A stretch of 64,000 nucleotides of DNA, from the NCBI RefSeq assembly GCF_028368975.1, contig NZ_JAQNDM010000002.1:2118007-2182006 (forward strand). Direction: 5' to 3'. The DNA comes from Stigmatella ashevillena. Lineage in GTDB: Bacteria > Myxococcota > Myxococcia > Myxococcales > Myxococcaceae. Below the pieces are notes generated by a model that worked only from the letters and a program-made list of their open reading frames with translations, was not told where the DNA came from and searched no databases. This document shows, in pieces, positions 50,174 through 64,000 of the stretch. Each line of letters starts with the position of its first letter. Position 1 is the first letter of the stretch. The translations under genes and the position numbers were made by a program.

Positions 50174-51076
50174 ATGAACATGATTTTCAATTCGAAGCGT
50201 CTGAGTGGATTCAAGCACCTCGCCGCACTGGGATTGGGGACGTTGCTGGCCACCTCGGGCTGTGGCGGCGAGGCTGGGCAGTCCACCGATGAAACGGAGA
50301 CGGTCACTCAGGAAGCCCAACCCCGGGCGGGCTGGGTCCAGATCTGGAGCGACGAGTTCAACGGCACCGGCGTAGACGCGTCCAACTGGTCCTACGTCAC
50401 CAACATCCACGTCAACAACGAGCAGCAGCAATACACGACATCGTCCCAGAACGTGGCGGTGAACAACGGCACCCTCAAGCTGACCGCGCGCCTCCAGTCC
50501 AACAACGGCTACCCCTTCACCTCGGGCCGTCTGGAGAGCGCGGGCAAGCGTCAGTTCGGCCACACCCGTATCGAGGCGCGCATCAAGCTGCCCGTCGGCC
50601 CTGGACTCTGGCCGGCCTTCTGGCTGCTCGGCCATGACATCAACAGCGTGGGCTGGCCGGCGTGCGGTGAGCTCGACATCATGGAGAACGTGGGCTACAG
50701 CAACTGGGTCTCGGGTGCCCTGCACGGTCCTGGCTACTCTGGCAATACGCCCATCAACGGCCAGTTCTTCCCCAACTCCTCCGTCAGCAATTTCCACGTC
50801 TACCGCACCGAGTTCTCCCCGACGGACGTCAAGTGGTACATCGATGACGTGCTGGTGAAGACCACGCGCAAGGCCGACGTCACGCGGTACGGCGCCTGGG
50901 TGTATGACAAGCCCTTCTTCATCATCCTCAACCTGGCAGTGGGCGGCGCCTACCCGCAGGGGCAGAACGGCGCCACCTCTCCGTACCCTGGCGTGCCGCA
51001 GTCCACGGTGGACCTGATCCGCAATACACCGCAGACGATGGAAGTAGACTGGGTGCGCGTCTATCAGTGGCAGTAG
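50174..51076 (+). CDS. Secreted GH16 beta-glucanase (laminarinase-like) lipoprotein
   Basis: The start ATG 50174 lies behind GAGGAA. The 300-residue protein has a lipoprotein-like signal (LLATSGC, cysteine about residue 30), a short acidic spacer, then a glycoside hydrolase family 16 domain. The catalytic core is GELDIMENVG (about residues 165-174; ExDxxE with nucleophile and acid/base), and WSDEFNG and the late GGAYPQG loop are family-typical. It should cut beta-1,3 or mixed beta-1,3-1,4 glucans, fitting a lytic predator or degrader of fungal walls. The 184 bases upstream (49990-50173) show an AT-rich patch but no clear promoter. Confidence 0.9.
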   Translation: MNMIFNSKRLSGFKHLAALGLGTLLATSGCGGEAGQSTDETETVTQEAQPRAGWVQIWSDEFNGTGVDASNWSYVTNIHVNNEQQQYTTSSQNVAVNNGTLKLTARLQSNNGYPFTSGRLESAGKRQFGHTRIEARIKLPVGPGLWPAFWLLGHDINSVGWPACGELDIMENVGYSNWVSGALHGPGYSGNTPINGQFFPNSSVSNFHVYRTEFSPTDVKWYIDDVLVKTTRKADVTRYGAWVYDKPFFIILNLAVGGAYPQGQNGATSPYPGVPQSTVDLIRNTPQTMEVDWVRVYQWQ

Positions 51077-51775: not shown

Positions 51776-54016
51776 ATGAACCGAAGTGGCATGGGGTGGC
51801 TGCACTGGATGTGGGGAGTGTGGCTGGTCGGAGTCTGTGGCCTTGCAGCAGGCGCTCCAGACGCATTCGCCTCGTCCGGCGCGGAGGTGAAGGTGGCCCG
51901 GGCGCCCTCGCGCTTGGCGGCAGGAGAGCGCCATTCCTTGGCCGTTCGCCCCGATGGCACTGTCTGGGCTTCGGGGAACAATGACTCCGGCCAGTTGGGG
52001 AATGGCTCCTCGCTGTCGAGCACGGCGCCCGTCCAGGTAGACGGATTGAGAGACGTGGTGTCCGTGGCTGCGGGCGCGAACCACTCGCTGGCCGTGCGCG
52101 CCGATGGCACCGTCTGGGCCTGGGGCGGCAACGCCCACGGCCAGTTGGGAGATGGCAGCACCTTCTCCCGCCTCGTGCCCATCCAGGTGCTGGGGCTGAG
52201 TGAGGTGGTCTCTGTCTCCGCGGGAGCCTCCTACTCGCTGGCGGTGCGCACGAACGGAACCGTCTGGGCCTGGGGCTCCAACGCCTTTGGCCAATTGGGA
52301 GATGGCACCGGCCTCTCGCACCCTGAGCCCGTGCAGGTGACAGGGCTGAGCGGAGCCACCTCTGTCGCGGCGGGGTTTTCTCACGCGCTGGCCGTGTGCT
52401 CAGACGGAACCGTGTGGGCCTGGGGCTCCAACACCTTCGGCCAATTGGGGGATGGCACCACCACCACCCGCTTCGCGCCCGTGCAGGTGTCCGGGATCAG
52501 CCAGGGAGTGGCCGTAGCGGTGGGCTCTAAATACTCGCTGGCACTGCATTCGGACGGCACCGTGTGGACCTGGGGGATGTCGAATATCAACTTGATGGGC
52601 GATGGCCCCCCGCCGCAGCGCCTCATGCCCGAGCAGGCACCCGGGCTCACCGGGGTGACCTCCGTGGCGTCGGGCCCTTCCCACGCGCTGGCGATGCGCC
52701 TGGACGGCTCCCTGTGGGCCTGGGGGGAGAACACCCTGGGTCAGCTGGGGGACGGCACGAGGCTCCGCTCCTTCAGACCCGTCGTGGTGAAAGCGGTGCA
52801 CGGGGCCTTGGAAGTGAAAGCAGGCTTCAGCCACTCGCTGGCGCTGCGCTCGGACGGCACCGTGTGGGCCTGGGGGGACAACTCCCATGGCCAGCGGGGG
52901 GATGGGTCCACGGGCAACCACCTGTCGCCGGTACCCGTGTCGGGGCTGGACACGGTGGTGTCCGTGTCCGCGGGCTATTCCCACGCGCTGGCGCTGCGCT
53001 CGGACGGGAGCGTGTGGGCCTGGGGCTCCAACACCGACGGTCAGTTGGGGGATGGAAGCGGAATCCACCATGCGACGCCCGTGCAGGCCGTGGGGCTGAG
53101 CCAGAGTGTGGCCGTGGCAGCGGGCTATCACCACTCGCTGGCGCTGCGCTCGGACGGCACCGTGTGGGCCTGGGGCTACAATGGTGCTGGCCAACTGGGA
53201 GATGGCACCATCACGCATCGCCGCACGCCGGTGCAAGTGCCCGGGCTGAGGGGAGTGGTGGCCGTGGCAGCAGGTTTTCTCTACTCACTGGCGGTGACCT
53301 CGGACGGCACCGTGTGGGCGTGGGGTGACAACAGCGCTGGCCAACTGGGAGATGGCACCACCTTGCGGCGCCTCACGCCAGTGCAGGTGGATGGACCCAG
53401 CAGGATCTCGGCCGTGGTGGCGGGTTATCGCCACGTGCTGGCGGTGCGCTCGAACGGCACCGTGTGGGCCTGGGGTGACAATACCCATGGCCAGTTGGGG
53501 GATGGCACCAACACGCATCGCCGCAGGCCTGTGCAAGTCCTGGGGCTGCACAGCGTGGAGTCCGTGGCCGGGGGCACTGCCCACTCGCTGGCGGTGCGCG
53601 CGGATGGCACGGTGTGGAGTTGGGGCAGCAATGCCGAGGGCCAGTTGGGGGAAGAGGCCGCTGCGGCTCGCCAGGTGCCTGGCCAGGTGCAAGGGTTGAG
53701 TGGAATGACATCCGTGGCGGCAGGCTCTTTCCACTCGCTGGCGGTGCACGGGGACGGCACCGCGTGGGCATGGGGAACCAATCGCCGGGGCCAGCTAGGA
53801 GATGGCACGGCGACCTCGCGGTGGACCCCTGTGCAGGTGGAAGGGCTGAGCGGCGTGGCGTCCATGGCGTCTTGCATCGCCGCCTATGTGGATGTGTTCT
53901 CATTGGCGGTTGCCTCCGATGGAACACCGTGGGCTTGGGGCGCCAACCTCGAAGGACAGCTGGGCGATAACGTCCTTCCCCAGTACGCCACTACCGCTGT
54001 GCCCTCCTTGCTGTAG
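51776..54016 (+). CDS. RCC1-repeat (two-propeller) secreted protein
   Basis: The 746-residue protein begins with a signal-like hydrophobic stretch (residues about 5-30). Fourteen consecutive RCC1-type repeats of about 51 residues follow, each with a SLAVRxDGTVWAWGxNxxGQLGDG core. Fourteen equals two seven-bladed propellers. No catalytic or anchoring domain is seen. Repeats also resemble each other closely at DNA level, suggesting duplication. Bacterial RCC1 proteins are often surface or secreted; myxobacteria have many. Two repeats depart from the core: the fifth (GMSNINLMGDGP) and the last. Confidence 0.88.
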   Translation: MNRSGMGWLHWMWGVWLVGVCGLAAGAPDAFASSGAEVKVARAPSRLAAGERHSLAVRPDGTVWASGNNDSGQLGNGSSLSSTAPVQVDGLRDVVSVAAGANHSLAVRADGTVWAWGGNAHGQLGDGSTFSRLVPIQVLGLSEVVSVSAGASYSLAVRTNGTVWAWGSNAFGQLGDGTGLSHPEPVQVTGLSGATSVAAGFSHALAVCSDGTVWAWGSNTFGQLGDGTTTTRFAPVQVSGISQGVAVAVGSKYSLALHSDGTVWTWGMSNINLMGDGPPPQRLMPEQAPGLTGVTSVASGPSHALAMRLDGSLWAWGENTLGQLGDGTRLRSFRPVVVKAVHGALEVKAGFSHSLALRSDGTVWAWGDNSHGQRGDGSTGNHLSPVPVSGLDTVVSVSAGYSHALALRSDGSVWAWGSNTDGQLGDGSGIHHATPVQAVGLSQSVAVAAGYHHSLALRSDGTVWAWGYNGAGQLGDGTITHRRTPVQVPGLRGVVAVAAGFLYSLAVTSDGTVWAWGDNSAGQLGDGTTLRRLTPVQVDGPSRISAVVAGYRHVLAVRSNGTVWAWGDNTHGQLGDGTNTHRRRPVQVLGLHSVESVAGGTAHSLAVRADGTVWSWGSNAEGQLGEEAAAARQVPGQVQGLSGMTSVAAGSFHSLAVHGDGTAWAWGTNRRGQLGDGTATSRWTPVQVEGLSGVASMASCIAAYVDVFSLAVASDGTPWAWGANLEGQLGDNVLPQYATTAVPSLL

Positions 54017-54034
54017 AAATCGACACAGCACCCC

Positions 54035-55840
54035 TCAGGCGATCCGTTCCACCCGAACATCGACATTCAGCTTCTCTGCCCCACCCCCGACGAAGATGGT
54101 CCCGGACGTCGGCGTGGCATCCCCATAGCCGCGTCCCACCGCGACTCGCACGTGGGCGGTCTGCGTGAGGATGCCATTGGTCGGGTCGAAGCCGCGCCAG
54201 CCCACATCGGGCAGGTAGAGCTGCAACCACGCATGAGACGCCTCCGCCTGCCGCTGATTCGGATTCTGCGGTCCACAGTAGATGTAGCCACACGCGTAAC
54301 GCGCCGGCACGCCCAGGAGCCTCGCCATGCAGATGAACAGGTTGGTGAAGTCCTGGCAGACGCCGTGCCGGTTCGTGTACACCTCGAAGGGCGTCGTGTG
54401 GACCGTCGTCGAGCCCTGCAGGTACTTGTACTCGCGGAAGATGGTCGAGTTGATGTCGAGCAACGTATCGAGCAAGTCGTAGCCGTTTCGCTCGACAAAG
54501 CTCATCGCGTACTCGATGAGCTCCATCAGCTCGGTCTCTGGCAGCTCCTGCGGCAGGAGGAACGGCTCCAGCACCTGCCGCTGCCAAGGCATCCACACCA
54601 GCGGGATGGAACTGCGCGAGTGGGGCGCCCGGAACTGAACCGGATCCGTGTCGTAGAGTTCCACCGTCGAGCGCGCCTCGATGGCCAGCTCGGTGTAGGG
54701 CGTCTCGATCAACACTCGAGTGGCCCGGTTGCCAAACACATCGTCGTAGTCACGGCGCTGCCCGTCCACGGACAGGTGGAGCTGGTGGCCGATCACCGCC
54801 TGCAAGCCGTCGTGCACCGGTCTCAGCCGGAGCACGTGGGTGCTCCGCTCGATGGGGTTCTCATAGGTGTACACGGTGCGATGCACCACGGAGAACCGCT
54901 GCACCTCCGCCTTCGAGGGCAGCTTCAAGTCGCGTATCCGAGCAACGAAGGGGGCCTGGAACAACGCCGCCCCGGGAGATTCCGGGGCGGGAGCCGCGAC
55001 CTGGGTGTCCGGGATCTGCTGAGGCACCTGCACCTGCGCCACGGGCCGCCTCGCCTCCGCGACGACCGCGCCCTGGCGGATCCGCAAGAGGCTCCCCGGC
55101 TCGAGCCGCTTCCAATCCACCTTGGCGTCACCCTGAGGCTCCAGCGGGTTGGAGCAGACAATGACGCCCTTGCGGCTCTTGATGCCGCGCTTGGTGAGAT
55201 CGATCGTCAGATCCCCGTCGCCGAAGACGAGGCTGTCGTGCGGCGGGTGGAGCGTCCAGATGTGCACCTCGCGCTCTGGGTCGCGGTCCGCATAGACGCA
55301 CAGGTCGCGCCCGTCGGTGAGGATGCTGGTAACAGAGCCGTGCTCGTTCATCGCATCGAAGAAGGCACGGAGCGCCTCTGGCTCGATGTCCCCCAGGCTG
55401 CGCAATCCCTTGTCGGAGAGCACCGACATGAGCTGACAGAAGATGAGCTCGGTGTCCGTCGAACCGATGGGCTCGAAGCGCTGAGGGACAGGCAGCTCGA
55501 GGCGGTGCGAGAGGCTGCCCGAGTGCGCCATCAGCCAATCGCGGCCGGCCCAAGCGCGGCGGAAGGGCTGTGTGTTGGCCGCGGAGATCTGTCCCCAGGT
55601 CGCCGTCCGGATGTGGACCACGAACAGCGGTGAGGCCAGGTGCTCCCAGGCCCGCACCAGCTCGCTGCGAATGGAGCCAGGCGGCGGCGCTGCCTCCTTG
55701 AGAACCTCCGCCGCGGGATCACCCCCCGGGTAGTAACCGATGCCCCATCCATCGGGCGGCTTTCGGTGGGGCTTCAGACAAAGCAGGTCGAACGAGGGGG
55801 CAAGGTCCCCCTCGAAGCTCATGGCAAGAACGTTGGGCAT
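54035..55840 (-). CDS. Amidotransferase-like plus transglutaminase-like fusion protein
   Basis: The start is ATG 55840 (MPNVLAMSFEGDLAPSF). The 601-residue protein has an N-terminal class II glutamine amidotransferase-like domain (about residues 1-260; GWGIGYY, VHIRTATWG, AANTQPF, AHSGSL, GSTDTELIF), then a Pro/Ala linker and a Bact_transglu_N plus transglutaminase-like domain (about 305-590). The transglutaminase triad is intact: Cys in GVCQDF (about 494), His in SHAWLQ, Asp in FDPTNG. Position 2, normally the nucleophilic Cys of the amidotransferase, is Pro, so the first domain cannot use the usual mechanism. It lies 111 bases downstream of the DUF2126/transglutaminase gene on the same strand. 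Confidence 0.82.
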   Translation of the reverse strand: MPNVLAMSFEGDLAPSFDLLCLKPHRKPPDGWGIGYYPGGDPAAEVLKEAAPPPGSIRSELVRAWEHLASPLFVVHIRTATWGQISAANTQPFRRAWAGRDWLMAHSGSLSHRLELPVPQRFEPIGSTDTELIFCQLMSVLSDKGLRSLGDIEPEALRAFFDAMNEHGSVTSILTDGRDLCVYADRDPEREVHIWTLHPPHDSLVFGDGDLTIDLTKRGIKSRKGVIVCSNPLEPQGDAKVDWKRLEPGSLLRIRQGAVVAEARRPVAQVQVPQQIPDTQVAAPAPESPGAALFQAPFVARIRDLKLPSKAEVQRFSVVHRTVYTYENPIERSTHVLRLRPVHDGLQAVIGHQLHLSVDGQRRDYDDVFGNRATRVLIETPYTELAIEARSTVELYDTDPVQFRAPHSRSSIPLVWMPWQRQVLEPFLLPQELPETELMELIEYAMSFVERNGYDLLDTLLDINSTIFREYKYLQGSTTVHTTPFEVYTNRHGVCQDFTNLFICMARLLGVPARYACGYIYCGPQNPNQRQAEASHAWLQLYLPDVGWRGFDPTNGILTQTAHVRVAVGRGYGDATPTSGTIFVGGGAEKLNVDVRVERIA

Positions 55841-55951
55841 CCGATGATTTTTATGGGGCGCCCGCACCTAGAGCGGGGGCGGGGGGAGCGTATCCGAACG
55901 GCCCCCCGCCGAGAAGACTGCCGATGACGCAGAGCGCATCGACCCCGTGCG

Positions 55952-58900
55952 TCACGACTTGGGCATCGGCGGTGGACGATCGATGGGGAAGCGGCGGAGA
56001 TCCAGGGTGTAGGGAGCCTCGGGGCTGGCTTGGACCGGCTGGGCCTTCACCGGCCAGGACAGGGGAGCCTCGGAGGTGAAGCGCTGCACGCGGCGGGCGG
56101 TCGCCTCGAAACGCGTGAGCGGCGGGTTGAGGAAGGCTCGGCCCTCGGGGTGCCAGACGTGATAGGCGCACGCACCGAGCGAGCGCTGCCCCCAGGTGTC
56201 GAGCAGGTCGAGCCGGATGGGGTGGTGGATGCCCAGGTGCGCCTGCAGGCTGTGCGGCGGAGCCCAGGCACGGAATCGGATTCCCGCCACCCATTCGTTG
56301 GCCTTCCCCGTGGGGTTGAGCGGCAGCGTGAGGCCGTTGACGAGCAGGACGTGCCGCTCCGGAACCAAGCCTGAGACACGGACCTCGATGCGCTCCATGG
56401 ACGAGTCCACATAGCGCGAGGTGCCTCCCGCGGTCAGCTCCTCGCCGAGCACATGCCACGGTTCGAGGGCATTGCGCACCTCGACGGTGACGTCGCCCAT
56501 CTGCACGCGCCCGGCCAGAGGGCAACGAAGCTCCAGGAAAGGCGAGTACCCCTCCAGCGGCAAGGAGAGGCCCCGCGCCGACAAGTAGGTGAGCACGTCC
56601 TCCAGGTCGCGTCCCAGGTAGTAGGGCAGCAGGTACTTGTCGTGGAGCGTGGGCCCGAAGCGGGCCAACTTGGCCTGATAGGGTTCACCCGCGAAGGCGG
56701 CGAAGAGCGCTCGCACCAGGATGGCCTGCGCGGACACCATGCGTGCATGGGGCGGCATCTCGAAGGCGCGCAGCTCCACCAACCCCTGCCGCCCACTGGC
56801 CGTCTGCGGATCAAACAGCTTGTCCAAGCACAGCTCGGTGCGGTGGGTATTGCCCGCCACGTCCACGAGGAGGTTGCGGAACAGCATGTCCGGCAGCCAG
56901 GGCGGCGGCGCATCCCCCGCGTTGAAGGCCTTGGTGAGCGCGATCTCCAACTCGTAGAGCGAGTCATGCCGCGCCTCGTCCACGCGGGGGGCCTGCGACG
57001 TCGGCCCGACGAACAGTCCGGTGAAGAGGTACGAGAGCGACGGGTGGTGCTGCACGAAGGTGATGAGCGAGGCGAGCAGGTCCGGCCGTGTCAGCAGCGG
57101 GCTGGACAGCGGTGTCGGACCGCCGAGCGTGATGTGGTTGCCCCCCCCGCTACCGGCCATGCGGCCGTCGAGCAGGTACCTCTCGCTGTGGAGACCCGAG
57201 TGGAGCGCCGCATCGAACACCTGGTTCACCAGTTCCCTGTGCTCGCGGCTGCTCGCCACGGGCGGCAGGTTGACCTCGAGCACCCCCGGATCCGGCGTCA
57301 CCGCGAACCGGTAGAGGAGCGGCGAGGGCGGCGGTGGGTAGCCCTCCAGCTGAATGGCGATACCGGTGTGCCTGCGAGCCTCGTCGATGAGCGCAACGAG
57401 CTCGAGGAAGTCCTCGGCCCGGGAGAGCGGTGGCAGGAACACATGCACCGTGCCAGCGCGCGCCTCGATGCACAGCGCGGTCCGGACCCGCGCCGGTCGG
57501 CTCGAGCGCGCACTCGCCATGAGCTTTCGCTGCTGCGTCACTTCGGGGGTCGGCGCGCGGCGGGGATCGATCGGCTCGTACGGCTCCTCCCACGGATCGG
57601 GCAGCGGGTCCCCCTCCGCGAGCGAGCGCAACGGCAGCCGCAGGCCGATGGGGCTGTCGCCGGAAAGCAGGAGCAGGTGATGCCGCCGGAACTGCCAGCG
57701 CTCGCTCACCCAGCGCCCATCCGCGGCACGCTCGAGGGGTAGCACGAACCCCACTTCCCTGCCGAGTCCACTGCCGAGCACCCGCGCCAGCCGCTGCCGC
57801 TCCTCGGGGTCCTTGAGGTTGACGCCAAGCGGATCGACGTCCACCGGCAAGTTCGCCTCATCCTGGAGGAAGCGCCACGGATCCTCGTAGGCGGAGAGCA
57901 CCTGCTCTGCCAGGCCCAGCCGCGACGCCACCGCCAGCGCCACCTCCCGTGCCTGCACGATGCCCGCGGTGCCGCCCGAGGCCACCGTCTCTCCTGTCCA
58001 GAGGGGCACCCGGTCGCGCCGCCCGCACACATCGAGCGCCCAGCGCGGCAGGCTCTCGCCCGGATAGTGCTTGCCCGCGCGCAGCAGCAGGGCCGCTCCG
58101 GGCGCGAGCCGCCGCTTGAGCTCCTCGGCGAGCTTGACCCCGAGCGTCCACTTGGTGTCGCCCAGCGCCGCCCCGTTCCACTCCGGCAGGTCCACGTGCT
58201 CGCGCGCGTTGAAAGTCGGCTCGCCCCCCAGGGTGAGCTTCACCCCGCGCTCCAGCAGCCTCGCGTCCGCGTGGTCCGCCCCTGCGCACAGCGCCTGCCA
58301 CACCTCCTCGGTGTAGGGCGCCGTCGGTCGGGGCTCATGCCCCAACCGGCCCACCGTCATCGAGAAGGTTACCTCCTGGGCTGGCGTGTCGCTCGTCCCC
58401 TCGATGGGGGCGGCCAGCGCCGGGGCTGCCGTCGAGGCAAGCGGGATATGGCCCTCTCCGGTCAACAGCCCGCTGGTCGCGTCGAGCCCGATCCACCCCG
58501 CCCCGGGCAAGAACACCTCTGCCCAGGCATGCAGGTCCACCACGTCGCGCCCCACACCGCGCGGGGCATTGGGGATCATCCCCTCGTCGGTGAGCTGCAC
58601 CAGGTAGCCGCTCACGAAGCGCGCCGCCAGTCCGCGCGAGCGCAGCACGGCGATGAGCAACATCGCCGAGTCACGGCAGCTCCCCTTGCCCTCCCTGAGC
58701 GTCTCCTCGGGGGTGAAGATGCCCGCCTCCTCGCGGATGACGTACTGGATGCGCTTGTTCACCGCCTCATTGAGCTGAACGATGAACGGCACCGTCGGCC
58801 CGGTGCGTGGCAACTCGTCGAGGAAGGCCTTGAGGCGCTCGCCGCCCCGCACCGAGGGCTCGTCTGCATCCAGGAACGGGATGAGGTCCTGCCGCAACTC

Positions 58901-59224
58901 TGCCGGATAGGCGAACGGCACCGCTTCGCAGCGGTTATCGAGGAAGAAGTCGAAGGGATTCACCGGCCGCACGTCCACGGCCATCTCCACCGTCACCTGG
59001 AAATGCGGGACGCGGACTCCCTCGGGAAAGGTGACACGGGCCACGTGGTTGCCATACGGGTCCTGGTGCCAGCGCACCTCACTGGCCGTGGGCTCCACGG
59101 TGAGGCCATAGGTCTCGATGGCGGCGCGTGCGTGGACGGCGGGGCGCAGCCGAAGAAGATGGGGGCCGAGCGCGGCCGGTTCCGGGTAGCGATACAGGTT
59201 GCGATGCTGGATGAGCAGCCGCAC
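55952..59224 (-). CDS. Transglutaminase-like protein with DUF2126 domain
   Basis: The start chosen is GTG 59224, five bases after GGAGG, giving MRLLIQHRNLYRYPEPA. The 1090-residue protein has an N-terminal Bact_transglu_N (about 1-160) and a transglutaminase core with Cys in GKGSCRD (about 185), His in DLHAWAEVF (about 231) and Asp in GLDATSG. A long DUF2126 region follows from about 330 (LGGEPTF, AGKHYPGESLPRWAL) to near the end. DUF2126 proteins are usually found with transglutaminases, Alpha-E proteins and ATP-grasp amidoligases in small peptide-making or modifying clusters. The gene is divergent from the kinase gene at 59493 and shares a strand with the fusion gene at 54035. Confidence 0.85.
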   Translation of the reverse strand: MRLLIQHRNLYRYPEPAALGPHLLRLRPAVHARAAIETYGLTVEPTASEVRWHQDPYGNHVARVTFPEGVRVPHFQVTVEMAVDVRPVNPFDFFLDNRCEAVPFAYPAELRQDLIPFLDADEPSVRGGERLKAFLDELPRTGPTVPFIVQLNEAVNKRIQYVIREEAGIFTPEETLREGKGSCRDSAMLLIAVLRSRGLAARFVSGYLVQLTDEGMIPNAPRGVGRDVVDLHAWAEVFLPGAGWIGLDATSGLLTGEGHIPLASTAAPALAAPIEGTSDTPAQEVTFSMTVGRLGHEPRPTAPYTEEVWQALCAGADHADARLLERGVKLTLGGEPTFNAREHVDLPEWNGAALGDTKWTLGVKLAEELKRRLAPGAALLLRAGKHYPGESLPRWALDVCGRRDRVPLWTGETVASGGTAGIVQAREVALAVASRLGLAEQVLSAYEDPWRFLQDEANLPVDVDPLGVNLKDPEERQRLARVLGSGLGREVGFVLPLERAADGRWVSERWQFRRHHLLLLSGDSPIGLRLPLRSLAEGDPLPDPWEEPYEPIDPRRAPTPEVTQQRKLMASARSSRPARVRTALCIEARAGTVHVFLPPLSRAEDFLELVALIDEARRHTGIAIQLEGYPPPPSPLLYRFAVTPDPGVLEVNLPPVASSREHRELVNQVFDAALHSGLHSERYLLDGRMAGSGGGNHITLGGPTPLSSPLLTRPDLLASLITFVQHHPSLSYLFTGLFVGPTSQAPRVDEARHDSLYELEIALTKAFNAGDAPPPWLPDMLFRNLLVDVAGNTHRTELCLDKLFDPQTASGRQGLVELRAFEMPPHARMVSAQAILVRALFAAFAGEPYQAKLARFGPTLHDKYLLPYYLGRDLEDVLTYLSARGLSLPLEGYSPFLELRCPLAGRVQMGDVTVEVRNALEPWHVLGEELTAGGTSRYVDSSMERIEVRVSGLVPERHVLLVNGLTLPLNPTGKANEWVAGIRFRAWAPPHSLQAHLGIHHPIRLDLLDTWGQRSLGACAYHVWHPEGRAFLNPPLTRFEATARRVQRFTSEAPLSWPVKAQPVQASPEAPYTLDLRRFPIDRPPPMPKS

Positions 59225-59492: not shown

Positions 59493-62400
59493 ATGATCGG
59501 CATTCCTGGCTACACGCTTATCGACAAACTCAAGTCAACAGGCACGAATATCCTGTATCATGCGGTGCGCGACTCGGATCGCCTGCCTGTCATCGTCAAG
59601 ATGCCCATGTCCGCGCATCCCGGCGTGCGCGAGCGCGACGACTACCGCCGGGAGTACGCCGTCCTGCAGCGGCTGAGCGAGGTGCGCGGCGTCTCCCGGG
59701 CCCTGGGCTGCGAGCTGAGAGGCGAGCGGCCGGTGCTCCTGATGGAGGGAGAAGGAGGAGCCGCCCTGTCTGACACGGGGGGGATACCGCTCGGAGTGGA
59801 GCACTTCCTCGGGCTGGCCATCTCCCTGGCATCAACGCTTACGGACATTCACCGCCGCGGCGTCATCCACAAGGACCTCAAGCCCTCCAACATCATCCGC
59901 CTGCTCTCGGGCGAGACGCGCATCGTCGACTTCGGGAGCGCCACCGTCCAGAGCGTCGAGCACGTGGAGGCGGTCCCCGCAGGGCTCATCGAGGGGACCC
60001 TCGCCTATATGTCCCCGGAGCAGACCGGACGCATGAACCGCTCGGTGGACTACCGCACCGACCTCTACTCCCTGGGGGTGACCTTCTACGAGCTGCTCAC
60101 CGGCACCTTGCCCTTCCACGGACGCGATGCGCTCGAGTGGTTCCACGCCCACATGGCGCAGACCCCGAGAGCGCCGCACGAGCGCATCCCGGCCATTGCC
60201 CCCTGCCTGTCCGCTATCGTGATCAAGCTGCTGGCCAAGGTGGCCGAGGAACGCTACCAGAGCGCCGACGGGTTGAAGGCCGACCTGCTGCGCTGCCAGG
60301 AGTCGCTCGGCCGGGGCGTGCGCGAGCCGTTTCCCCTGGGCGAGCACGACATCCCTACCCACTTCCAGATGCCCCAGCGGCTCTATGGGCGCGAAGCCCA
60401 AGTGGACACGCTGCTGCAGTCCTTCGAGCGGGTCGCGCGGGGTGGGCATCCGGAGCTGGTGCTGATCAGCGGCTACTCCGGCATCGGCAAGTCCGCGGTG
60501 GTGCACGAGCTGTACCGGCCCGTCGTGCAGCGGCGGGGCATTTTCCTCGACGGCAAATTCGACCAGTTCCAGCGGGACATCCCTTACACCACCCTGGCCC
60601 AGGCCATCCGGGGCCTGGTGCGCCAGTTGTTGGCCGGCACCGACGCGGAGCTCGAGGCGTGGCGCGAGCAACTGCACGAGGCGTGGGAGGGAAGCGGGCA
60701 GCTCCTCGTGGATCTGGTCCCCCAGCTCGAGCTCGTCGTGGGCAAGCAGCCAGCGCTCCCAGCGCTCACCCCCGCCGAGTCACAACATCGCTTCGACTGG
60801 CTCTTCCAGCGCTTTCTCGGGGTGCTCTCCACCCCCGCGCACCCGCTCGTCATCTTCCTGGATGACCTGCAGTGGGCCGACATGGCCAGCCTCCGGCTCA
60901 TCCAGCACCTCTTCACCCACCCGGACACCCCGCCGCTGTTGATGATCGGCGCCTACCGCGACAACGAGGTCAGCCCGTCCCACCCGTTGATGCTGGCGCG
61001 GCAGGAGCTGCACAAAGCGGGCGCGTGGGTGGCCGAGCTCCGGCTCGAGCCCCTGGGCCAGGAGCAGCTGAGACAGATCATCACCGATGCGCTCCCAGGC
61101 GCGGAGCGGGAGGTCATCGAACCCCTCTCGGCCCTGGTGCACAGCAAGACTGGAGGCAACCCCTTCTTTTTCCTCCAGCTCATGCGGACGTTGAACCAGG
61201 ACGGGCTGTTGACCCGCACGCCAGCGGGGCATTGGCAGTGGAATGAGCAGGGCATCCGGGCCCGGGCCTACTCCGACAACGTCGTCGACTTCCTGGTGGG
61301 TCGGCTGCGACAGCTCCCCCCGGAGACCCAGCAGTTGCTGCGCCTGGCGGCGTGCGCGGGCAATGCCTTCCCGACGCGCACCCTGGCCATCATCGCCGAC
61401 AAATCAGAGGACGCGGTGGAGCGGGAACTCGAGCCCTCGCTCCAGGAAGGCCTGTTGATGCAGGCGGGCCAGGAGCAATACCGGTTCCTCCACGATCGCA
61501 TCCAGCAGGCGGCCCATGCCCTCATTCCCGAGGAGGAGCGCAAAGCCATCCACCTGCGCATCGGCCGTCTGCTGCTGGCGAGCCTGTCCCTGGAGGAAGT
61601 GCGCGAAAAGCTCTTCGACGTGGTGAACCATCTCAACGCCGGGACGGAGCTGCTCGTGATCCCCGGGGAGCGCCACCAGGTCGCGCTGCTGAATGCCGAG
61701 GCGGGCAGGAAGGCCCAGGCTTCGACGGCGCACCGCGCGGCCGTCACCTACTTCACGGCGGCCCTCTCACTGCTGCCAGACCTCTGGGCGCGCGAGCACG
61801 CGCTGGCCTTCCAGCTGAGCTTCCAGCGGGCGACGAGCGAGTTCATGAGCGGCAACACGGACGGGGCGCGCCAGTTCGTGGAGGCGCTCCGCCCCCGGGC
61901 GCGCACCTCCGCGCAGCTGGCGTCGGTGTCCGTGTTGTTGAGCAACATCCACATCGCCACCAGCGAATCCCAGCTCGCCGTGGACTGTCTGCTGGAGTGC
62001 CTGACCTGCCTGGGCATGCCCATGCCCCCCCATCCCTCCCGGGAGGAGGTGGAGGCAGCCAACGCGGAGGTGTGGACCCTGCTGGGGGAACGCCCCATCG
62101 CGAGCCTCCTTGAGCTGCCGCTCATGACGGACCCGGACATCCAGGTGGTGATGAGCGTCCTCGCCGCCCTGTTCACGCCCTCGCTCTTCACGGACGTCAA
62201 CCTGCTCGTCCTGCACCTGTGCCGGATGATCTCCCTGTCCTTGCGCCACGGCAACAGCGAGGCCATCACGAATGGGTATGCGTGGTACGGCATCACGCTG
62301 GGCGACCTGTTCGGGCGGTACCGGGAGGGCCATGCCTTCGGCGAGCTGGCCCTCGCCCTCGTCGAGCGCCACGGCTACACCACCTCCCGGGCGAGGATCC

Positions 62401-64000
62401 TCTACTCGATGGAGATCCTCAGCGTCTGGACCCAGCCGCTCACCCTCTCGCTGGAGCACATCCGCAATGCCTTTCAGCAGGCCGTTCCGGCGGGTGATTT
62501 CCAGACCGCCGGCTACTGCTGCAACCACATCATCACGGATCGCCTCGCCCTCGGGCACAACCTGGACGAGGTCCACCAGGAGTCGATCGCGCGCATGGAC
62601 TTCGCGCGCAAGGCCAGCTTCCAAGCCGTCCAACAAGTCATCCAGCACACCCAGCGCTACATACAGCAACTGCGCGGCCTGTCCCCGTCCTTCGACTCGC
62701 TGAACGGTGAGGGCTTCGACGAGGACGCCTTCGAGGCCAGGCTGTCGTCGATACCGCACATGAGCACCGCGGTGTGCTGGTACTGGATCACCAAGACGCA
62801 GTCGCGCGTCATGTGCGGCCGGTACGAGGAGGCATGTCAAGCATCCGCCAGGGCCCAGGAGCTCCTCTGGTCCTCGCTCGGCCACATCCAACGGGTGGAC
62901 TTCCACCTCTACAGCGCGTTGGCCCTGTCCGGCCGCTGCGAGGACGCGGCGCCCGAAGCACGACGGGAATACCTCGAGGCCATGCGGCGGCACCAACGAC
63001 AGCTCGAGGAGTGGGCGCAGCACAACCCCGGCACCTTCCGCGCGGCCGAGCGGATGGCCGCCGCGGAACTCGCCCAGCATCAGGCGCAATGGGACGAGGC
63101 GGTGCACGCCTACGATGCGGCGATCCAATCGGCGCGCGAGCACGGCTTCATCCAGAACGCCGCGCTCGCCAACGAGTTCGCGGCGCGCTTCTGGCGCAAG
63201 CGGGGGGTCAAGACCCTCGCCCTGGCCTCCGCCCGCGAGGCGCGGGAGGCGTACCTGGCGTGGGGGGCCCACGGCAAGGTCAAGCACCTGGAGGACCAGT
63301 GGCCCCTGCTCTCGGACACGGCGAGCACGCAGGACCGCGGATTCGATACGACCTCGATCCATCTCGATGCGCTCACCGTGGTGAAAGCCCAACACGCCAT
63401 CTCTGGGGAGATCGACCTGGAGCAACTGGTGTCCACGCTGCTGCGAGTGGCCATGGAGAACGTTGGCGCCCAGCGCGGCGCCCTGCTGCGCCCGCTCGGC
63501 AACAAGCTGCGGCTGGTGGCCATCTCCAGCGTGGCGGAAGGGGGCGCCGTGGTGCTTTCGGAAGACCACTCCACCCACGCGCTGCCCTGGTCGCTCCTCA
63601 CCTACGTCAAGCGCACGCGCGAGCACGTGCTCATTGGTGATGCCTCCCGGCCCCATCCCTACGCCTCCGACGACTACTTCGAGCGCGGCCAGGCCAAGGC
63701 GGTGCTCTGCCTGCCGCTGCTGCGCCAGGAGGAGCTCGTCGGCGTGCTCTACTTAGAGAACAGCCTCACCGCGGATGCCTTCACCCCGGCCCGCATCACG
63801 CTGCTCGGGCACATCGCCTCCCAGGCCGCCATCTCCATCGAGAACGCTCGGCTCTACGCCGACATCAAGCAGGCCAAGACCGCCCTGCGCGACGCCAACG
63901 ACGAGTTGGAGCGGCGCGTGGACGAGCGCACGCACGAGCTCAAGGAGGCCCAGGCCCGGCTGGTGGAGATGGCACGCGCGGCGGGAATGTCCGAGATCGC
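59493..64000 (+). CDS. Giant Ser/Thr kinase - AAA ATPase - GAF (- histidine kinase) hybrid, 3'-truncated by the window
   Basis: The frame is open from ATG 59493 to the window end (about 1502 codons). Domains in order: a Ser/Thr kinase (about residues 5-270; VIVKM with the Lys, HKDLKPSN about 127-134, IVDFGS, YMSPEQTGR); an AAA/STAND-like ATPase (P-loop SGYSGIGKS about 326-334, VIFLDDLQWADM); a long helical TPR-like region (about 700-1280); and a GAF domain (about 1300-1450; ends LYLENSLTADAF). A coiled coil then runs toward a probable histidine kinase beyond the edge. This matches the AAA-like trifunctional kinase/ATPase/sensor proteins common in myxobacteria. Its signal and target are unknown. 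Confidence 0.88.
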   Translation, partial: MIGIPGYTLIDKLKSTGTNILYHAVRDSDRLPVIVKMPMSAHPGVRERDDYRREYAVLQRLSEVRGVSRALGCELRGERPVLLMEGEGGAALSDTGGIPLGVEHFLGLAISLASTLTDIHRRGVIHKDLKPSNIIRLLSGETRIVDFGSATVQSVEHVEAVPAGLIEGTLAYMSPEQTGRMNRSVDYRTDLYSLGVTFYELLTGTLPFHGRDALEWFHAHMAQTPRAPHERIPAIAPCLSAIVIKLLAKVAEERYQSADGLKADLLRCQESLGRGVREPFPLGEHDIPTHFQMPQRLYGREAQVDTLLQSFERVARGGHPELVLISGYSGIGKSAVVHELYRPVVQRRGIFLDGKFDQFQRDIPYTTLAQAIRGLVRQLLAGTDAELEAWREQLHEAWEGSGQLLVDLVPQLELVVGKQPALPALTPAESQHRFDWLFQRFLGVLSTPAHPLVIFLDDLQWADMASLRLIQHLFTHPDTPPLLMIGAYRDNEVSPSHPLMLARQELHKAGAWVAELRLEPLGQEQLRQIITDALPGAEREVIEPLSALVHSKTGGNPFFFLQLMRTLNQDGLLTRTPAGHWQWNEQGIRARAYSDNVVDFLVGRLRQLPPETQQLLRLAACAGNAFPTRTLAIIADKSEDAVERELEPSLQEGLLMQAGQEQYRFLHDRIQQAAHALIPEEERKAIHLRIGRLLLASLSLEEVREKLFDVVNHLNAGTELLVIPGERHQVALLNAEAGRKAQASTAHRAAVTYFTAALSLLPDLWAREHALAFQLSFQRATSEFMSGNTDGARQFVEALRPRARTSAQLASVSVLLSNIHIATSESQLAVDCLLECLTCLGMPMPPHPSREEVEAANAEVWTLLGERPIASLLELPLMTDPDIQVVMSVLAALFTPSLFTDVNLLVLHLCRMISLSLRHGNSEAITNGYAWYGITLGDLFGRYREGHAFGELALALVERHGYTTSRARILYSMEILSVWTQPLTLSLEHIRNAFQQAVPAGDFQTAGYCCNHIITDRLALGHNLDEVHQESIARMDFARKASFQAVQQVIQHTQRYIQQLRGLSPSFDSLNGEGFDEDAFEARLSSIPHMSTAVCWYWITKTQSRVMCGRYEEACQASARAQELLWSSLGHIQRVDFHLYSALALSGRCEDAAPEARREYLEAMRRHQRQLEEWAQHNPGTFRAAERMAAAELAQHQAQWDEAVHAYDAAIQSAREHGFIQNAALANEFAARFWRKRGVKTLALASAREAREAYLAWGAHGKVKHLEDQWPLLSDTASTQDRGFDTTSIHLDALTVVKAQHAISGEIDLEQLVSTLLRVAMENVGAQRGALLRPLGNKLRLVAISSVAEGGAVVLSEDHSTHALPWSLLTYVKRTREHVLIGDASRPHPYASDDYFERGQAKAVLCLPLLRQEELVGVLYLENSLTADAFTPARITLLGHIASQAAISIENARLYADIKQAKTALRDANDELERRVDERTHELKEAQARLVEMARAAGMSEI

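Follow-up and report, generated by a model that had tools for sequence, protein, structure and literature searches.

The window analysed here, a 64,000-nucleotide stretch of the Stigmatella ashevillena genome (contig NZ_JAQNDM010000002.1, positions 2,118,007 to 2,182,006), contains two adjacent minus-strand genes for transglutaminase (TG) proteins (Table 1). The first encodes TG-DUF2126, in which Pfam recognizes Bact_transglu_N, Transglut_core and DUF2126 domains. The second encodes a TG whose N-terminal part is a class II amidotransferase-type domain of the GATase_4 family; this protein is termed the fusion below, and the absence of the catalytic cysteine from its N-terminal domain is the main subject of this work. 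A preliminary description of this DNA is accurate as to the coordinates, the spacing of the genes, the Met-Pro start of the fusion and the presence of the motifs GWGIGYY, HIRTATWG, AHSGSL and GSTDTE. It had counted AHSGSL among the kept amidotransferase motifs, which does not hold, as the stand-alone family has HNG at that place.

Table 1. The two genes and their features, in positions of the window
Feature	Position	Strand	Remarks
Fusion gene: pseudo-GATase_4 + Bact_transglu_N + Transglut_core	54035..55840	(-)	601 aa; ATG start at 55840; N-terminus MPNVLAM
GATase_4-like (class II amidotransferase) domain, residues about 3-272	55025..55834	(-)	PF13230, E = 6.9e-67, positions 3-266 of 272
Pro2 codon, place of the catalytic N-terminal Cys	55835..55837	(-)	0 Cys in 89 distinct fused rows
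Arg78 codon, presumed ligand of the glutamine alpha-carboxylate	55607..55609	(-)	72/72 in the window's clade, 83/89 overall
Ser107 codon, in place of the Asn of HNG	55520..55522	(-)	S 44, A 25, G 3 of 72 clade rows
Asp129 codon, presumed ligand of the glutamine alpha-amino group	55454..55456	(-)	89/89 fused rows
Bact_transglu_N domain of the fusion	54659..54892	(-)	PF08379
Transglut_core domain of the fusion	54182..54469	(-)	PF01841; triad C495/H536/D552, 89/89
Intergenic gap	55841..55951	(-)	111 bases
TG-DUF2126 gene, putative amidoligase (Pfam's wording) fused to transglutaminase	55952..59224	(-)	1090 aa; GTG start; stop at 55952
Transglut_core domain of TG-DUF2126	58478..58786	(-)	Pfam match; triad C183/H232/D248
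DUF2126 domain	55994..58378	(-)	PF09899, E = 0, 1022 bits, positions 5-826 of 826

Relatives of the fusion were gathered by a scan of named genome contigs, from which the best 80 of 324 encoding stretches were kept, the other 244 being less like the window. All 80 encode amidotransferase-TG fusions over nearly the full length. As the scan patterns sit in the TG part, there was no selection for or against a cysteine in the amidotransferase part. After removal of four duplicates, the alignment holds 89 distinct TG-fused rows, and the Cys-His-Asp triad of the fused TG is identical in every one of them. The triad of TG-DUF2126 is likewise invariant in 28/28 aligned rows, which comprise the window and 27 full-length TG-DUF2126 relatives out of the 30 present in the 80 related loci (L049, L053 and L095 were left out). 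Both TGs thus keep the triads that the preliminary description had called intact, and the TG of the fusion appears to be a working one. For DUF2126, a search by sequence at E values up to 1 returned no solved relative.

The missing catalytic residues and the retained Arg and Asp

Across the 89 distinct rows, position 2 of the fusion is Pro in 63, Ser in 11, Leu in 9, Thr in 6 and Cys in none. The Cys-free start reported for the window is therefore conserved throughout its relatives, although the residue that follows the methionine is not always proline. A wrong start is ruled out by in-frame stops three to five codons upstream in relatives, among them L012, L015, L018, L020 and L023, and by the single upstream GTG in the window (55867), which adds no Cys. 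Thirteen rows, including the window, carry their Pro or Leu at position 2 in the same place. A sequencing or start error is ruled out in that a Cys-free start is common to relatives of several phyla, and a frameshift or pseudogene is ruled out by strong conservation and the lack of internal stops. No Met-Cys homologue, and no upstream start that would place Cys at position 2, was found among the TG-fused proteins examined. Judged from these alignments, the fused domain genuinely lacks the cysteine.

As a control, 45 GATase_4 proteins without a TG match in frame were examined, and 44 of them have the Cys, the Asn of HNG, the Arg and the Asp. The set comprises 31 proteins from the phylum of genome G197, 2 from the phylum of genome G195, 10 non-fusion matches from Myxococcota and 2 from the window's own genome. 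The 31 correspond to 29 of the best-scoring 30 places, the thirtieth being the fusion of G197 itself, together with the two longest frames further down (789 and 486 aa). These two were candidates for a Cys-bearing TG fusion; both have the Cys and neither has a TG match, and the candidates were rejected. The ten Myxococcota proteins are all the non-fusion matches of a domain-profile search, and include L157, which lies near a contig end and whose stand-alone status is unproven. L147 is truncated by the end of its contig and does not count in the control.

The single exception is a divergent GATase_4 copy in the window's own genome (L010:2586-3485, plus strand). This GATase_4-like protein carries no TG, has Ser at the Cys site, HQG in place of HNG and Gly in place of the Arg, and is a second candidate pseudo-amidotransferase.

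On a tree, the fusions split into a Pro/Leu clade of 72 rows, which contains the window, and a Ser/Thr clade of 17 rows. In the Pro/Leu clade, position 2 is Pro in 63 rows and Leu in 9. A second catalytic position is altered as well: the Asn of HNG, which we take to form the oxyanion hole and in whose place Ser107 stands, is replaced by Ser, Ala or Gly in all 72 rows. When the 264 positions of the domain are ranked by conservation within this clade, the nucleophile site comes 76th and the oxyanion site 125th. Arg78 and Asp129 are each invariant in 72/72 rows, and are among 30 invariant positions. By analogy with GlmS and PurF, these side chains are presumed to hold the alpha-carboxylate and the alpha-amino group of glutamine, respectively; a literature search for glutaminase residue roles found nothing confirming this assignment. 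The GWG and NTQPF motifs around the pocket are also nearly or fully invariant in the clade.

The family relationship itself is close. The fusion domain shares its Pfam family, almost end to end, with class II amidotransferases of the YafJ/GATase_4 type (PF13230), and its HIR, GWG, NTxPF and TD motifs align with those of the solved protein 1te5. Consistent with this, the domain is predicted to adopt the alpha-beta-beta-alpha fold and pocket of the N-terminal nucleophile (Ntn) class. The differences are that here the domain is fused to a TG, and that both the Cys1 and the Asn of HNG are replaced.

Hydrolysis is taken as lost because neither the nucleophile nor the oxyanion Asn is present. Taken together with the retained Arg and Asp, the fused domain is best read as a recognition domain that has lost catalysis but kept its presumed pocket and sits on a working TG, where it probably recognizes substrate rather than cuts it. 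Of the two alternatives raised in the preliminary description, a binding domain or a proline nucleophile, the former fits best.

Several observations weigh against this interpretation. Arg78 is lost in 6 of the 17 rows of the Ser/Thr clade, so that retention of the pocket is not family-wide, and the conservation of Arg78 and Asp129 may serve folding instead. In addition, position 2 is still fairly conserved in the window's clade (Pro 63 and Leu 9 of 72), which is unexplained if it is non-catalytic. Finally, 12 of the 80 loci have no partner gene in the fetched stretch, and in 5 of these the stretch extends at least 7.5 kb to either side. The first of these points would also suit a domain that acts as a scaffold only, dimerizing the TG or docking it to the ATP-grasp, Alpha-E or DUF2126 proteins with no small ligand involved. 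The loss of the catalytic positions and the availability of several operon partners for docking agree with such a role, while the invariance of Arg78 and Asp129 in all 72 rows of the window's clade, and the near or full invariance of GWG and NTQPF, do not; a pure scaffold is accordingly possible but somewhat doubtful.

Alternatively, the domain could still hydrolyse a substrate through another residue, for example Ser107 or a nucleophile contributed by the TG. The strong family match and the occurrence of Ser107 in 44 of the 72 clade rows are in keeping with this. As the same position is Ala or Gly in the remaining 28 and the oxyanion Asn is gone from all 72, continued hydrolysis is very unlikely.

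The second alternative of the preliminary description requires proline itself to act as the nucleophile once the methionine has been removed. Methionine is removed before Pro and not before Leu. Position 2 is Pro in 63 of the 89 distinct rows, which would expose a proline, but it is Leu in 9 of the 72 clade rows, where the methionine should stay. The paralogue in the window's own genome has Pro2, and Leu2 is found in its closest sisters, which belong to two genomes of the same genus; Leu2 rows also include Corallococcus. This interchange of Pro and Leu between close relatives makes an N-terminal proline nucleophile unlikely, and combined with the loss of the oxyanion Asn from all 72 rows it leaves this explanation scarcely credible.

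The serine/threonine sister clade

In a tree of 62 chosen rows, the fused domains form one clade (support 100/99) apart from 12 stand-alone proteins, and within it both the Ser/Thr clade (99/93) and the Pro/Leu clade (100/100) are recovered; this tree does not tell whether the fused ancestor had Cys or Ser/Thr. The Ser/Thr clade consists of Planctomycetota and others, and rises to 23 distinct rows when those of a planctomycete-centred search are added, including L147, whose contig ends before any TG could be seen. A start codon stands directly before the Ser or Thr in 16 of the 23, but not in the other seven (L091, L092, L093, L096, L100, L102 and L103). In ten of the 23, the start codon, the Asn, the Arg, the Asp and the His of a THPF motif are all present (L084, L086, L087, L089, L090, L144, L147, L148, L149 and L151). 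Four of these (L084, L086, L087 and L144) begin with TTG, and each has GGAG a few bases upstream.

These rows suggest that, in the Ser/Thr clade, Ser or Thr may have taken over from Cys as the nucleophile. Two observations argue against such a swap. Four rows (L091, L092, L093 and L102) share an N-terminal extension (KRxEHQ) before the Thr, which makes their Thr internal; the extension may represent a propeptide, or else an inactive N-terminus. L089 has part of it (EHQ), so that its ATG is perhaps internal too, in which case nine of the 23 rows would be complete. Furthermore, other rows of this clade lack the Asn or the Arg. A two-step history can be drawn from these data, in which a nucleophile swap gave a Ser/Thr Ntn amidase or peptidase fused to the TG, and the domain then became, in the window's clade, a pure glutamyl-binding receptor that controls the TG. 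We regard this sequence of events as unlikely overall. A nucleophile swap followed by loss is nonetheless a succession that could be tested within one protein family.

Partner genes and a proposed mechanism

At E values up to 0.001, CP_ATPgrasp_2, Alpha-E and DUF2126 (PF09899) each match once in the genome (10.95 Mb, two contigs). A second fusion (N-terminus MPHLLAL), the ATP-grasp gene and the Alpha-E gene form one row at C2:2301588-2305557, where the distance to the window copy is about 128 kb for the fusion and about 130 kb for ATP-grasp. The genes are split between two places in the same way in the relatives G006 and G020, with one fusion beside TG-DUF2126 and another beside ATP-grasp and Alpha-E.

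Among the 80 related loci, ATP-grasp and Alpha-E occur within the fetched stretch in 62 and DUF2126 in 40. Divided by content, 34 loci have ATP-grasp, Alpha-E and DUF2126, 28 have ATP-grasp and Alpha-E, 6 have DUF2126 alone and 12 have none; for the 39 loci flanked by at least 7.5 kb on each side, the corresponding numbers are 20, 11, 3 and 5. A frequent gene order is TG-DUF2126, a shorter DUF2126 paralogue, ATP-grasp, Alpha-E and the fusion. The shorter paralogue (for example L042:4203-5507 and L036:3636-5000, plus strand) is about 33-39% identical over the C-terminal part, and in many loci separates TG-DUF2126 from ATP-grasp. The window's genome has a single DUF2126 match, against two DUF2126 genes in many related loci. 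Crude gene clustering of the loci returned no further widely shared, trusted neighbour beyond the known partners; the underlying gene calls were noisy, and some of the larger clusters contained antisense frames.

The preliminary description had suggested that the two genes could form a reduced system, one lacking ATP-grasp and Alpha-E. Indeed, neither lies beside the window genes, nor in the TG-DUF2126 and fusion stretch of the two relatives. In all three genomes, however, ATP-grasp, Alpha-E and a further fusion are present at another place. The position of these partners beside a paralogue of the fusion in the window's own genome, together with their occurrence in 62 of 80 loci, causes the idea of a reduced system to fail as an account of this locus, and we consider it quite improbable. 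The locus is instead a variant of the known ATP-grasp/Alpha-E/TG peptide-ligase system, an operon type that is poorly understood.

The window fusion groups with the copies of G006 and G020 and, with weaker support, with that of an uncultured deltaproteobacterium (L025), and not with its own paralogue (L008:5586-7334). This suggests an old duplication or a transfer of the DUF2126 locus.

If the domain is a recognition module, the system as a whole might operate as follows. The window would hold the DUF2126 half of a split ATP-grasp/Alpha-E/DUF2126/TG peptide-ligase system. The N-terminal domain of the fusion, related to YafJ/GATase_4-type amidotransferases, would have lost hydrolysis and kept the residues that hold glutamine. 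Its pocket would bind a free amino-acid end resembling glutamine, glutamate or gamma-glutamyl, either as a free molecule or as the terminus of a peptide tag that the ATP-grasp and DUF2126 ligases have built. The domain, possibly in contact with these partners, would then present this ligand to Cys495 of the fused TG, or gate access to it, and the TG would form or hydrolyse a peptide or isopeptide bond. We place this scheme, which builds on conservation and gene neighbourhood, slightly above an even chance. Its interest lies in a pocket that is strictly kept while the chemistry is erased, which points to what the system may recognize, namely a glutamine- or glutamate-like amino-acid end, and makes the small fused domain a bait for finding the substrate.

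Related systems provide some context. Peptide-synthesis systems of the ATP-grasp/amidoligase type are credited to Iyer et al. 2009 in PMC5666114, PMC3597751 and other papers; they bring together a circularly permuted ATP-grasp, Alpha-E and Bact_transglu_N/Transglut_core. Here, DUF2126 is present as well, and the TG is fused to a GATase_4 domain with a dead active site. ATP-grasp/Alpha-E/TG systems are thought to make or attach peptides. The Anbu operon, described in PMC6376114 and PMC5666114, likewise has ATP-grasp, Alpha-E, a TG and an Ntn-fold protein. According to PMC6376114, tests of Anbu revealed neither peptidase nor amidase activity, and the ATP-grasp protein of its operon released phosphate from ATP. 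In the present system, the Ntn-type component belongs to the TG polypeptide itself, as an amidotransferase-type domain, and a proteasome-family search of the genome did not find Anbu; its one match reads as HslV and lies beside a frame reading as HslU. The rlo operon of Pseudomonas aeruginosa also combines an ATP-grasp protein with a TG-fold partner, which PMC12239564 describes as inactive and in the membrane, whereas here the TG triad is intact and it is the amidotransferase part that is without catalytic residues.

A literature search whose scope mostly excluded subscription papers, Iyer et al. 2009 among them, found no paper mentioning DUF2126, none pairing GATase_4 with Transglut_core and none pairing a class II glutamine amidotransferase with TG and ATP-grasp. 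The GATase_4-TG fusion may have been described before, for example in Iyer et al. 2009.

As to distribution, at least 41 of 195 Myxococcota genomes match the amidotransferase domain profile at 1e-15 and at least 33 of 195 at 1e-80 or better, both being lower bounds because only part of each genome's candidates was scored. A search for anti-phage functions gave no PADLOC match for the four proteins tested. Of plasmid records, 303 give a match, but no match extends over 80% of the fusion, and the 40 listed lie in the TG part, starting at residue 276 or later.

Divergent from TG-DUF2126, a plus-strand frame of more than 1500 aa (59493-64000) runs off the window and reads as a Ser/Thr kinase with ATPase and sensor parts. 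Convergent with the fusion gene is a plus-strand gene for an RCC1-repeat protein (51776-54016), with 13 RCC1 stretches in Pfam, and upstream of it lies a GH16 glycosidase gene (50174-51076).

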